From Demequina maris (GTDB lineage: Bacteria > Actinomycetota > Actinomycetes > Actinomycetales > Demequinaceae), in contig NZ_BBLX01000004.1 of NCBI RefSeq assembly GCF_000971155.1, forward strand, positions 186,001 to 250,000: 64,000 nucleotides of DNA. The letters run 5' to 3'. Shown piece by piece: positions 781-54,684 of this stretch. The stretch's first letter is position 1. Each line of letters begins with the position of its first letter. Made by a program: the position numbers and the translations under genes. The notes under the pieces are model-generated. The model was not told the DNA's origin. It was given only the letters and a program-made list of their open reading frames with translations, and searched no databases.

Positions 781-2301
781 CTACGAGGGTTCGGGCGGAG
801 CGCCGGGTTCGTCCTCGCCGGTGCAGGTGGTGTTCCAGGGTCGAGGTGCGCCGAACCTGGCGCGTCCGCCCTGACGCGGCGTTCTCGACGCATCGACGGA
901 TGCGGGCGGGATGAACCAGACCTCGGTGTCGGTAGCCCGGATCTGCCAGCCTTGATCGTGGATGACGTGATGACAGTGGGAGCACAGCAGGACGCAGTTG
1001 CTGATGTCGGTCCGGCCGCCCCTGGACCAGTAGACGATGTGGTGGGCCTCGCACCAGGCCGGAGGGGCGCCGCAGAACGCACACCCGCCGTCACGCTCAC
1101 CTACAGCGATGCGTTGCGCGCGTGAGAACGGATACTGGCGCCGCCCGAGGTTGAGCGCCTCGCCCTTCTCACCCGACAGCGCGGGGATGAGGATCGCGGA
1201 GGTGATCATGCGTTGCGCCGTGGTCATGCTGATGGGCTGCGTGCAGCCGTCGACCTCGCCCAACCCTGTGCCCTTCTCCAGGTCGGTGGCGGTGGCGCGC
1301 ACGACGACGGTGGTGGTGCCGAACAACGCGGTGGTCGTCTCACAGCCCAGGGCGTGACGGGCCAGATCGGCCAGCGAGTCTGCGCGCATCTGATCGGTCG
1401 TGCGCAGGTCCACGCCAGGTGCGTCGCGGCTCGTGCGCATCGCATCCCCGACGAGCTTGTCCAACGCGGCCCTGAGGGGTGCTGCGGTCTCGGGGTCGAG
1501 CTCCCCGTTGATGACGAGCATCCCGGCACGGTTCTCGAAGATGCGCAGGTGACGTCGCGCCCGCATGCGCGCGAGGTTGCGCTCGTGCTGCTCCACGTCG
1601 AGGGCCGCCTTGAAGCGGGAGACGATCTTGGCGAACCGGGACGCATCCAACCCCTTCGCGCGCTCCACCAGCTGGGCGGCGGCGTCCTGCTTGAACTCGG
1701 CAGGTACGTCGGGGGAGAGGGCGTCGAGCATGGTGATGATCTGGGCGCCGCAGTCCGCGGAGATCTCGCCGGCGTCCAGGGACGCGGCAACCGCGGGATA
1801 GCGCGGCTGGGGCTTGGCTCTGGGTTGAGGCTTGGGCTTCGGCTGGGGAGCCGGCGGCGGGTCGTCACCCGGGTTGTTCTCCGGGTTGCCCTCGTCATCC
1901 GGATCGTCCTCGGGGTCGTCAGGCCCGGGCTTGCCGCTCTCCATCTCCTCGAGCGCCCGCCCGACCTCGAGCAGCCGGAATGCCTCGGCCCGGGTGGTGC
2001 CCATCGTCGCGGCGACAAGATCCGCCGCGCCGCGATAGCCGTGCTGCTTCGCGACCCCACCTCCGGGCACATCCGATCCGGTCTCGATATCCCGCGCCGT
2101 ACGCGCCAGTACCATGTCGAGCTCGCGCGCCAGCTGTGCCGCATCTCCCAGCCGCGCGACCGCAGCACCGGCGTCACCCACCGCGGCCAGCCCACGCATC
2201 GTCCCCACGGCCGCCCGTGCCTCCCGGCACGCATGCCCGAACGCGTCGACCCCGGCGGCGGCGCCACCGGGACCGGCATCGAACAGGTACGAGGCTTCCA
2301 T
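781..2301 (-). CDS. DUF222 / 13E12-repeat protein with C-terminal HNH nuclease domain
   Basis: A 506-residue protein of the actinobacterial DUF222-HNH type. The N-terminal two thirds is the DUF222 region. The C terminus holds a complete HNH zinc-finger nuclease motif: CAFCG, then EAHHIVYWSRGG, then CSHCHH. Around residues 125-168 lies a low-complexity insert rich in D, E, N and P followed by PKPQP-type repeats, probably a flexible linker. Such proteins are multicopy in many actinobacteria and are linked to mobile or selfish behaviour, but the cellular role is not established. ATG at 2301 is the start; no partner genes sit beside it. Confidence 0.85.
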   Translation of the reverse strand: MEASYLFDAGPGGAAAGVDAFGHACREARAAVGTMRGLAAVGDAGAAVARLGDAAQLARELDMVLARTARDIETGSDVPGGGVAKQHGYRGAADLVAATMGTTRAEAFRLLEVGRALEEMESGKPGPDDPEDDPDDEGNPENNPGDDPPPAPQPKPKPQPRAKPQPRYPAVAASLDAGEISADCGAQIITMLDALSPDVPAEFKQDAAAQLVERAKGLDASRFAKIVSRFKAALDVEQHERNLARMRARRHLRIFENRAGMLVINGELDPETAAPLRAALDKLVGDAMRTSRDAPGVDLRTTDQMRADSLADLARHALGCETTTALFGTTTVVVRATATDLEKGTGLGEVDGCTQPISMTTAQRMITSAILIPALSGEKGEALNLGRRQYPFSRAQRIAVGERDGGCAFCGAPPAWCEAHHIVYWSRGGRTDISNCVLLCSHCHHVIHDQGWQIRATDTEVWFIPPASVDASRTPRQGGRARFGAPRPWNTTCTGEDEPGAPPEPS

Positions 2302-9878: not shown

Positions 9879-11069
9879 TCAGCGGGCGCCCATGAGGTGC
9901 TCGACCGCGAGCTGCTGCAGGCGGACGTAGCCGAAGCCCTTGCCGTCGAAGTACGCGTCGGGGTCGAAGTCCTCGTACGCGGAGGTGTCTGCCAGCAGGT
10001 CGGCGGTGGTCTCGCCCGCGCCGAGCGTGGTCTGCGCGAGCTCGTCCTGGCGGGTGGCGGCGATGGCCTCCTGGACCTCGGGGTCCGCACGGAAGGCCGC
10101 CGCGCGCTCCTTGAGGATGAGGTACATCCGCATGTTCGCCTTCGCGGACTCCCACACGCCGTCGAAGTCCTCGGTGCGCGAGGGCTTGTAGTCGAAGTGG
10201 CGGGGGCCCGTGTACGCCGGCGAGCCGTTCGGGCCGCCGTTCTCGAGCAGGTCGACGAGCGAGAACGCGTTGATGAGGTCGCCGTGGCCGAAGACCAGGT
10301 CCTGGTCGTACTTGATGCCGCGCTGGCCGTTGAGGTCGATGTGGAAGAGCTTGCCGTGGTCGAGCGCCTGCGCGATGCCCGCGGTGAAGTTGAGGCCCGC
10401 CATCTGCTCGTGGCCCACCTCGGGGTTGAGGCCCACCAGCTCGGGGTGGTCGAGCGTGTTGATGAAGGCCATCGCGTGGCCGACCGTCGGCAGCAGGATG
10501 TCGCCGCGGGGCTCGTTCGGCTTGGGCTCGATCGCGAACTTGAGGTCGTAGCCCTTCTCGAGGACGTAGTCGCCGAAGATGTTCGCGGCCTCGCGGTAGC
10601 GCTCGAGCGCGACGCGGATGTCCTTGGAGAAGTCGTACTCGGCGCCCTCGCGGCCGCCCCACATGACGAAGGTCTTCGCGCCGAGCTCGGCGGCCAGGTC
10701 GATGTTGCGGAGGATCTTGCGGATCGTGAAGCGGCGCACGTCGCGCGCGTTCGAGGTGACGCCGCCGTCCTTGAAGACCGGGTGCGAGAACGTGTTCGTG
10801 GTGATCATCGGGATCTTCATCCCAGTCTCCTCGCACGCCTTCTTGAGCGCGTCGATGGCGGCGCGGCGGTCCGCGTCCGACGACCCGAACGGGAACAGGT
10901 CGTCGTCGTGGAAGGTCATGCCGTACGCGCCCAGCTCGGCGAGCTTGTGGATCGCCTCGACCGGGTCCAGGGCGCCGCGGGTGGCGGAGCCGAACGGGTC
11001 CGCGGCCGGCCATCCAATGGTCCAGAGGCCGAACGTGAAGTGGTCGGCCGGGGTGGGGGTGAAGGACAT
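9879..11069 (-). CDS. xylA: Xylose isomerase
   Basis: A 396-residue enzyme converting D-xylose to D-xylulose. The sequence is typical of the shorter actinobacterial class: [21 protein letters not shown] (substrate-binding His and Asp), [24 protein letters not shown] (metal-ligand Glu and catalytic Lys), [16 protein letters not shown] and [11 protein letters not shown]. Length matches the class. GGAGA 7-11 nt upstream selects ATG 11069 over the in-frame ATG at 11084. It is divergent from a ROK regulator and followed by xylB, the usual actinobacterial xyl arrangement. Confidence 0.95.
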
Positions 11070-13602: not shown

Positions 13603-13962
13603 TCAGGATCCGTCCTGCATCGCGATCCACGCGGCCACGATCGACTCGAGCTCGCCGCGGCGCTCGTCCGCCTCCTCGACGGAGGCGAAGGTCATGGTCC
13701 GCCCCTCCTTGCCGTCGCCCTCGAGGTGCGGGTGGTCGCCCGGGATCAGCGCGCCCTTGTGGAACATCAGCGTGGCGTGCTTGCGGGCCCGCGGGAAGAA
13801 GCTCGCGAGGTTGCCGCGGTACGTGAACGTGGGCGCCTGCCACTTGATGCACTCGCCCATGCGCGGGTCCGCCTCGAGCACGATCCGCCGCACCCGTTCG
13901 ACCACATCCTTCATCGGGTTGTCGTACGCCGCCATCCAGGCGTCGACCTCGTTGTCCGCCAT
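13603..13962 (-). CDS. DUF1801 domain protein
   Basis: A 119-residue soluble protein of the DUF1801 (YdhG-like) family: IKWQAPTFTYRGN and FFPRARKHATLMFHKGA are the typical strands of this fold. No biochemical function is established for the family. A -10-like TAGCCT (minus strand, 13969-13974) lies 6 nt before the ATG and overlaps the stop codon of ogt, so the gene may be both read through from ogt and transcribed as a leaderless mRNA. Confidence 0.8.
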   Translation of the reverse strand: MADNEVDAWMAAYDNPMKDVVERVRRIVLEADPRMGECIKWQAPTFTYRGNLASFFPRARKHATLMFHKGALIPGDHPHLEGDGKEGRTMTFASVEEADERRGELESIVAAWIAMQDGS

Positions 13963-16377: not shown

Positions 16378-16512
16378 GGCCTCTCCTTCCCGGGCGCCGT
16401 CCCGCGAGGGCGTCGGCCGGGGCCGTTCGCTGTGAGGCGCCCTCGCTGGCGGGCTCCACGCTACGGCCGGTGTGTGTCGGGCGCGTGTCCGCCGGGAAAT
16501 AACTCTGTTACG

Positions 16513-20761: not shown

Positions 20762-20822
20762 GCTGCCGCTATTCCTGCACGAGGCGCCACGCCCTGGTGC
20801 TTCGTGCACGAATAGCGGCAGC
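20762..20822. repeat. 61-bp long inverted repeat, intergenic
   Basis: GCTGCCGCTATTC (20762-20774) pairs perfectly with GAATAGCGGCAGC (20810-20822); after one mismatch the pairing continues with TGCACGA (20776-20782) against TCGTGCA (20802-20808) and a weaker inner stem. It lies between the merR promoter and the end of the choice-of-anchor gene. It resembles a REP-like intergenic palindrome or a small non-autonomous element. Confidence 0.7.
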
Positions 20823-52972: not shown

Positions 52973-53416
52973 GTGCCCGTCAAGGACCTCACCCTGACCA
53001 GCCCCGACATCGCGGACATGGAGCGGATCGACGACCGCTTCGCCGGCCAGTTCGGCGCGGAGACCCCGCGCCTGGTCGTCGACGGGATCCCCGCGCAGGC
53101 GGTAGAGCTCGCCGTCGTCTGCCACGACCCGGACGCGCCCAAGCCGTTCGGCTTCACTCACTGGACGCTGTACGGGCTCGCACCGCTCGACGGCGCGATC
53201 GACATCGACGCGGGCCGTCCCGGGCCCAACGACGACGGCGGGCATGGCTATGTCGGCCCGTTCCCGCCCTACGGCCACGGCGACCACCGGTACTACTTCC
53301 ACCTGTACGCGCTCACCCGTCCGGTCGAGGGTGAGCCCACGCGCGACGAGTTCCTCCACCGCTACGGCGACGCGATCGTCGAGCAGGCCAGGCTCGTCGC
53401 GACCTACTCGCGCTGA
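52973..53416 (+). CDS. YbhB/YbcL family PEBP-like protein
   Basis: A 147-residue phosphatidylethanolamine-binding-protein fold, as in bacterial Raf-kinase-inhibitor-like proteins: VVCHDPDAPKPFGFTHWTLYGL (around residues 45-66) carries the DPDAP ligand-pocket motif, then GYVGPFPPYGHGDHRYYFHLYAL, cited from residues about 88-110, the GxxGPxPPxGxxHRY signature. Ligand unknown. GAGGAGGAG precedes GTG 52973; an in-frame ATG at 52889 is too far upstream of the fold. Confidence 0.85.
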   Translation: MPVKDLTLTSPDIADMERIDDRFAGQFGAETPRLVVDGIPAQAVELAVVCHDPDAPKPFGFTHWTLYGLAPLDGAIDIDAGRPGPNDDGGHGYVGPFPPYGHGDHRYYFHLYALTRPVEGEPTRDEFLHRYGDAIVEQARLVATYSR

Positions 53417-53721
53417 GGCGTCGGCGGGATCGGCACACCCGCGCACGCGGCGACCCTGCGCCTCCCGTGCTCGGCGATTTCATGCACTTCGGACGCGCCA
53501 AGGCCCGTTTCCGCATCAGTCGCGCGCAGATGGCCCGCCCAACACGGGTCCACTTCCGACCTGAGGGGCCGTGCCGAGGAATGGTCCGGCGCGAGATCGG
53601 CCGAAGTGCATGAAAACGCCGAGCGACACGGTCCGACACCCGGGGCATCCTCGGGTGGCGGCCCGCGCGCGCCGGGCGCATCCTGAGAGACAGCCCCCCG
53701 CGCATCCTCAGGAGCACCGAC
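53417..53721. other. 305-bp intergenic region, mostly occupied by a MITE-like element
   Basis: Contains the 154-bp inverted-repeat element at 53470-53623 and, just before the next gene, the ribosome site CAGGAG. I see no other ORF or promoter of note. Confidence 0.6.
53470..53623. mobile_element. MITE-like element with 23-bp terminal inverted repeats
   Basis: Left end 53470-53492 begins CTCGGCGATTTCATGC and ends ACTTCGG; right end 53601-53623 begins CCGAAGTGCATGAAAA and ends CGCCGAG. The two are inverted copies with one mismatch in 23. The 108-bp centre encodes nothing recognisable. Outside the ends, CCGTG (left) and CACGG (right) are also inverted, so the true border may be wider. No clear target duplication. 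Confidence 0.55.
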
Positions 53722-54684
53722 ATGACCGCCGTGGTCCCGCGCGTCTCGCGACGCGACGACGCCCGCTACCGCGAGGCTGAGCGGGAGGTCTGGGCCCACC
53801 ACGGGATGACGCCGGTCGAGCGGTGGGTCGAGGTGCCCGGCTACGGCATCCGCGTGCGGGCGCTCGAGCACGGCGAGGGCCGGCCCGTCGTCTTCGTCCA
53901 CGGCAACCCGACCGCAGGCAACGTCTTCGTCCCGCTGGTCGCGGCGCTGCCCGGCGTGCGCGCGATCGTCGTCGACCGCCCCGGCTGCGGGCTGAGCGAG
54001 GCGCTCGACTACTCGGACATGACGCCCGACGACCTCCGGGCCGCGATCACCGCGTACCTCTCGGCCGTCATCGAGGGGCTCGTCGGCGGGCCCGCGCACC
54101 TGCTCGGGAACTCCGCCGGCGGCGGCACCGTGCTGGTGGCGGCGGCGCGCCGGCCTGACCTGGTCGACAGCGTCGTGATCGAGGGCGTGCCCGCGGTGCG
54201 CGGCATGCGGCTGCCGCGCGAGCTCCGCATGACCGCGCTGACCCCGGTCGCCCGCATCGTCGCGGCGCACAAGGTCAACGAGGCGGACCTGCGCCGCTCC
54301 TTCCGCGCCATGGGCCACGGCGACCTGATCGACGCCGGTGGCCCGCCCGCCGCCGAGTTCGCGTGGCGCATGGCGCTGTCGCGGTACACCGACACGTACT
54401 GGCACGAGCTCTCGCTCATCCGCCGCTCCGCCACCTGGCGCGGCCTGCGCCCCGACTGGGTCGCCGGCAAGGAGACGCTCGAGGCGCTGCGCATGCCGAG
54501 CCTGTGGATCGTGGGCGACCGCGACCCGTTCGCGCGTCCCGAGCGCGTGCGCGCCTGGGCGCGCCACGCGCCGCAGTCGACCGTGCACGTGATGGAGAGC
54601 TCGGGTCATCAGCCGTGGCTCGACGACCCGGCGCGGCACGCGCGCCTCATCGACGGCTGGTGGAGCGCCGCGGCCGCGGCGTGA
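53722..54684 (+). CDS. Alpha/beta hydrolase
   Basis: A 320-residue cytosolic hydrolase. VVFVHGNPTAGNVF gives the oxyanion HGNP loop, HLLGNSAGG the nucleophile Ser (GxSxG, about residue 132), VGDRDPF the acid Asp and SSGHQPWLDDP the catalytic His. Nucleophile Ser rather than Asp argues against a haloalkane dehalogenase; esterase or lactonase-like activity is more likely but the substrate is unknown. CAGGAG precedes ATG 53722. Confidence 0.83.
   Translation: MTAVVPRVSRRDDARYREAEREVWAHHGMTPVERWVEVPGYGIRVRALEHGEGRPVVFVHGNPTAGNVFVPLVAALPGVRAIVVDRPGCGLSEALDYSDMTPDDLRAAITAYLSAVIEGLVGGPAHLLGNSAGGGTVLVAAARRPDLVDSVVIEGVPAVRGMRLPRELRMTALTPVARIVAAHKVNEADLRRSFRAMGHGDLIDAGGPPAAEFAWRMALSRYTDTYWHELSLIRRSATWRGLRPDWVAGKETLEALRMPSLWIVGDRDPFARPERVRAWARHAPQSTVHVMESSGHQPWLDDPARHARLIDGWWSAAAAA

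Follow-up and report, generated by a model that had tools for sequence, protein, structure and literature searches.

What is the pair of inverted repeats that lies between a PEBP-family gene and an alpha/beta-hydrolase gene of Demequina maris? The locus belongs to a 64,000-nucleotide stretch of contig NZ_BBLX01000004.1, which is the window analysed here, and the original prediction had read it as a 154-bp, MITE-like element with inverted ends around 108 bp. The element is as described, with arms one base longer: positions 53470-53492 and 53601-53623 are complementary in 22/23 positions, with 108 bp between them, and one outward base (53469/53624) extends the repeat to 23/24; inward extension is weak. 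It is the only 24-bp inverted repeat with 23 matches and arms within 300 bp in the 64-kb window, and the best repeat per shuffle reached 19-21 matches in 12 dinucleotide shuffles of the window. The inverted ends are real and exceed chance. The predicted non-coding, intergenic placement also held up. The PEBP-family gene (+ strand) ends at 53416, 52 bp before the element, and the hydrolase gene (+ strand) starts at 53722, 98 bp beyond it; mechanical open reading frames run across the element, and codon-usage gene calls do not overlap it. At the same locus of D. silvatica (L087), an extra hydrolase-like gene lies between the PEBP gene and the element.

A BLAST search of the D. maris genome (G000) with the 154 bp returned no second full copy, but the ends recur. 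With at most 3 mismatches over 20 positions they occupy 10 places, forming five inward-facing pairs (doublets) with spans of 139-271 bp, and a 14-nt core with at most 1 mismatch finds the same 10 places, no others and no unpaired ends. The five doublets share no interior (0/10 interior pairs with z>3), and within an element the left unit resembles its right partner no more than it resembles units of other copies (P 0.34). Each of the five sits in a gap where D. phytophila (G025) has a doublet too, and the unit reads GGCG in D. maris and mostly GCCG in D. phytophila. Coordinates of the window features, together with those of two further types of inverted pair in D. maris, are summarized in the table.

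Coordinates of inverted-pair features in D. maris (window positions for the first five rows; locus and position within it for the others)
Feature	Position	Strand	Remarks
Whole doublet, inverted repeat	53469..53624	.	23/24 outer arm positions complementary
Left unit, 26 nt, outer end CTC	53470..53495	+	unit-matrix score 34.8, second best in window; 0 mismatches over 20-position end pattern; model match E 5.9e-4
Interior between units	53496..53597	.	unlike the other four D. maris interiors; folding z 0.52
Right unit, inverted copy of left unit	53598..53623	-	unit-matrix score 37.4, best in window; model E 6.5e-5
Short doublet, second sub-family, CTGCCGCTATTCNTGCACGA	20763..20821	.	arms 20 nt, outer span 59
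GTGCGCCTCTCCACACA family	L323:15973-16081		contig C22
GTGCGCCTCTCCACACA family	L325:13139-13246		contig C21
GTGCGCCTCTCCACACA family	L326:891-998, 1954-2062		contig C21
GTGCGCCTCTCCACACA family	L327:5337-5445, 13652-13739, 16391-16499		contig C21
GTGCGCCTCTCCACACA family	L329:1793-1901, 10832-10940		contig C21
GTGCGCCTCTCCACACA family	L335:2370-2479		contig C21
GTGCGCCTCTCCACACA family	L341:3664-3772		contig C21

Across the family, the architecture consists of two inward-facing units of ~26 nt (core TTTCATGCAC, with CTC at the outer end), one on each side of an interior that is free in length and sequence, with outer spans of 55-289. Polarity is + to - in 66 of the 77 loci (at least two units each) and the reverse in none; 10 loci have one unit and 1 has none above threshold. 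Additional direct copies of the unit, often ~54 bp apart, are present in genomes G061 and G011. None of the 57 doublets that have a gene call on both sides overlaps one, a count that leaves out L240, where one flank is missing; their gaps are codirectional in 23 cases, convergent in 22 and divergent in 12. The units fold about as well as shuffled sequence (mean z +0.43 to -0.86 in eight species, G011 lowest). In most species, the two units of an element show no greater similarity than units drawn from different copies, and hairpin pairing is therefore not demonstrably selected.

Many copies in D. phytophila, D. silvatica (G026) and their near relatives carry the motif ATCTASCAGG, which lies near the middle of short and long elements alike. 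The motif is found in 18/31 elements of G000, G006, G017, G025 and G026, compared with 1.1 in shuffles, using a matrix that was trained on the same elements it scored. Its mean distance from the midpoint is 0.049, compared with 0.158 expected, and falls below all 20,000 random placements. The correlation between the lengths on either side of it is only moderate (Pearson 0.56, p 0.015; Spearman 0.33, p 0.18; 0.55 without the two weakest). The interior of the window doublet has no recognisable copy (motif score -3.2). In D. phytophila, 10/66 interior pairs reach z>3 (null 0), a likeness that probably comes from the central motif.

The family is concentrated in one part of the genus. A 15-nt pattern has matches in 11/44 Demequina genomes and is paired in D. 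phytophila and D. silvatica. A scan of named genomes for the paired pattern found it only in D. phytophila NBRC 109391 and D. silvatica NBRC 109395 (7 stretches). With a sequence-only unit model built from 40 arms and searched at the loose threshold of E <=3, at least one match was obtained in 29/44 Demequina genomes: 26 in D. phytophila, 21 in D. silvatica, 20 in G061, 17 in G022, 12 in G011, 11 in D. maris, 9 in G017, 8 in G059 and 6 in G002, with 1-4 in each of the other 20 genomes (individual places are those among the matches listed). All nine species with at least 6 unit matches fall within one 14-species clade of a 30-species tree (support 86/94) built from serB and the DNA preceding it; other members of the clade, such as G023, G029 and G027, have few units or none. 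Outside the genus, in a set of 119 genomes of the order that includes at least 9 of Demequina, four genomes have one weak, unpaired match each at E <=0.05. In viral contigs, 21 stretches contain the paired 9-nt core, but the outer part of the unit is missing from all of them. The unit sequences are species-specific, and the best-covered genomes hold 5-12 doublets each. A literature search for repeats of this kind in Demequina returned no paper among the matches listed.

The places of the doublets are widely shared between species. Of the 77 loci, 45 fall into 15 groups backed by both flanks, the largest spanning 7 species; 6/77 came from neighbour-gene searches and are biased towards sharing. 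Both-flank groups were used instead of one-flank grouping, which joined unrelated loci, and for the comparison of unit distances the groups also took loci added through some strong one-flank links. In that comparison, units from different species differ at 9.18 of 26 positions at shared loci vs 9.19 at unrelated loci (weighted over species pairs; G059 distances are inflated by a one-base register shift). Within a species, units at different loci differ at 3.7-5.6 of 26 positions (8.7 in G006, with 3 loci), so that similarity is about twice as high within a species as between species. Between D. phytophila and D. silvatica, which are very closely related, shared loci are closer than unrelated ones (3.36 vs 5.00). 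We infer short-term inheritance in place and longer-term homogenisation within each species. Judged by these comparisons, the doublets evolve in concert at fixed places.

The interiors bear on whether the units changed in place. Three of the 19 cross-species interior comparisons are clearly homologous despite lineage-specific units (L020-L080, z 4.15; L160-L084, z 4.05; L020-L091, z 3.97). They belong to two loci, namely serB (G017 with G025) and a doublet whose neighbouring gene encodes a prepilin-type N-terminal motif (G000 with G025 and G026), and speak for change in place. The other 16/19 are not clearly alike, and there the doublets may have been replaced by new copies. At the serB, agmatine-deiminase and PEBP loci, the doublets of other species carry different sequence. 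In the serB gap, the D. maris doublet is shared with D. phytophila, yet lies ~95 bp further from the gene, beside a short doublet; G023 has a short copy there with a decayed right unit. In place of a doublet, four Demequina genomes outside the clade (G064, G015, G065 and G024; loci L173, L174, L176 and L178) have near-perfect hairpins with arms of 20-26 bp directly after serB, perhaps terminators.

We hypothesize that the window feature is one member of a family of REPIN/BIME-like doublets that is specific to one clade and has a trans-acting recognition factor, a reading to which we assign a probability of roughly 0.55. Most likely, the doublet ends are recognition sites of that putative factor. 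Both ends would be recognised by a sequence-specific factor whose gene lies elsewhere in the genome, and they would track changes of the factor as the interior drifts. On action, the two ends may come together as a hairpin or a looped complex, as is suggested by the location of ATCTASCAGG close to the midpoint irrespective of length. Repeats that change their sequence together, in place, need a genome-wide force. Neutral drift was rejected as the cause because it cannot alter all loci of one genome in the same way. Three forces are candidates: a co-evolving recognition factor that exerts selection on the repeats, a putative transposase that copies them, and gene conversion. We rank the co-evolving factor first because the places and some interiors persist and there is no target duplication; copying by a transposase keeps substantial weight because the copies in G022 have the look of a recent expansion. 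The factor is not a RAYT. No such factor was found, and the 40 of the 81 listed flanking proteins that were scanned include no transposase or recombinase and point to no common regulon or theme in gene function. We speculate, with rather more doubt than belief, that the family represents a new genome-wide paired recognition site, with inherited places and inward-facing ends that co-evolve with a putative non-RAYT factor, which would join the two ends and read a midpoint motif. The pattern is present in a small, well-sampled clade whose genomes have few copies and lack the transposase to which REPINs are attributed, so that a co-evolving factor could be sought by comparing about a dozen genomes.

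The main rival is a replicating, non-autonomous REPIN-like doublet, moved by a putative non-RAYT transposase, of which new copies land in or beside old ones and the current variant of each species refills the common gaps. A mobile origin is plausible because the family is dispersed, multi-copy and defined by inverted ends. In G022, two sub-families of near-identical units and the absence of all 13 model-found loci from any both-flank group fit mobility. At serB, the extra doublet of D. maris, which G006 and G023 lack, stands beside a short one that these genomes share, and the D. maris genome has a second, nearly fixed-length family of inverted pairs with alike interiors. Nevertheless, we consider replication somewhat unlikely as the explanation: target duplication, pooled over 66 doublets from all species, does not exceed that of shuffled pairs (p 0.89 and 0.77), homologous interiors occur with different units at two loci between species, and no clean empty site, as the original prediction had proposed to look for, was seen, the absence at serB in G020 being a loss of the whole gap. 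Size, inverted ends and intergenic copies would suit a classical MITE, derived from a DDE insertion sequence that has the same terminal inverted repeats. What survives of the original prediction is a dispersed, multi-copy family with inverted ends. The element is not an ordinary MITE because its interiors are unrelated, flanking direct repeats are at the level of chance, its gaps are common to other species such as D. phytophila, and no insertion sequence with CTCGGCGTTTTCATGCA ends was found in D. maris, all 10 end-like matches (at most 1 mismatch) belonging to the five short pairs (an autonomous element could escape a search of this draft assembly of 22 contigs). The MITE reading is largely refuted and, in our view, very improbable. 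An IS1634-type element of D. phytophila and D. silvatica was rejected as a source of the units, since its hairpin resembles the unit core but its terminal repeats differ. At L300 and L301 of these species, the transposase gene, which we take from its sequence to be of the IS1634 type, has a perfect 5' hairpin, CTTAGTGCGTTTTCACGCACTAAG.

Alternatively, the doublets could act at the RNA level, their transcribed hairpins serving as terminators or as processing or stability signals at gene ends. The folded strand is more stable than shuffles (z -5.2), and convergent genes flank 22/57 doublets, but divergent genes flank 12/57, the window doublet has no match in Rfam, interiors show no excess folding (mean z -0.29 for 30 interiors), and in most species covariation within an element does not go beyond the family sequence. 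The original prediction had taken a single copy at the same place in all relatives as the sign of a conserved RNA structure, against a transposable element. This is borne out in part: D. phytophila, D. silvatica, G002 and G022 also have a doublet in the window gap. However, each genome has several copies of the family, and G006 and G023 lack the one at this locus. With one sequence per genome left unexplained by a structural role, we regard an RNA-level element as improbable. An invertible switch, in which a recombinase inverts the DNA between the ends, can hardly be credited: inverted repeats of such size around 100-250 bp, at several loci and with one common end sequence, would suit it, but the interiors compared between D. 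phytophila and D. silvatica run in the same direction in 5/6 cases, with an ambiguous sixth (L079-L086), and the 22 doublets between convergent genes also argue against it.

Two further types of inverted pair accompany the main family in D. maris. A second sub-family near serB consists of a shorter doublet with sequence related to the main family; the short doublet in the window has the same architecture and span as the copy downstream of serB (L019:1892-1950), and is related to copies in G006 and G023. A separate family has ends near GTGCGCCTCTCCACACA. Its unit starts are 91-93 bp apart in 10/11 elements and 71 bp apart in one, its interiors are often alike (25/55 pairs with z>3, null 1), and 10/11 elements are on contig C21 (scan of 0.85 Mb). 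In appearance, it is closer to MITEs or REPINs than the family of the window doublet is.

The Demequina doublets combine features of several known repeat systems. Like MITEs, they have terminal inverted repeats, a length of about 150 bp and no coding capacity, but they lack a common interior, a target-site duplication and a partner insertion sequence. DNA uptake sequences form species-specific dialects that change in concert, often as inverted pairs at gene ends; they are shorter, reach hundreds to thousands of copies and lie inside genes as well. The Demequina units are likewise species-specific dialects changing in concert, but are longer and fewer. REPINs, or REP doublets, are described as extragenic inverted doublets of a short conserved unit with a less conserved spacer, occurring in dozens to hundreds of copies, with sub-families within one genome and some clusters (PMC3116915). 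The Demequina elements are also extragenic inverted doublets of a short unit, with sub-families in one genome and some clusters; unlike REPINs, they have non-palindromic units, 5-12 doublets in the best-covered genomes, free spacing and gaps that are shared between species. RAYT (PF01797) was found in 0/44 Demequina genomes (control positive in 5/14), and 60 units have no invariant GTAG or CGTC tetranucleotide at or beside their ends. The family works like a REPIN/BIME doublet, yet is not classed as a REPIN because three defining REP tests fail, namely the palindromic unit, the tag and the RAYT. CGTC-tagged REPs without a dedicated transposase are described as palindromic and commonly dimeric (PMC3733652). 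The Demequina units are neither palindromic nor CGTC-tagged, but they share with these REPs the condition of REP-like repeats without a matching transposase, which makes the CGTC-tagged REPs their nearest stated precedent.
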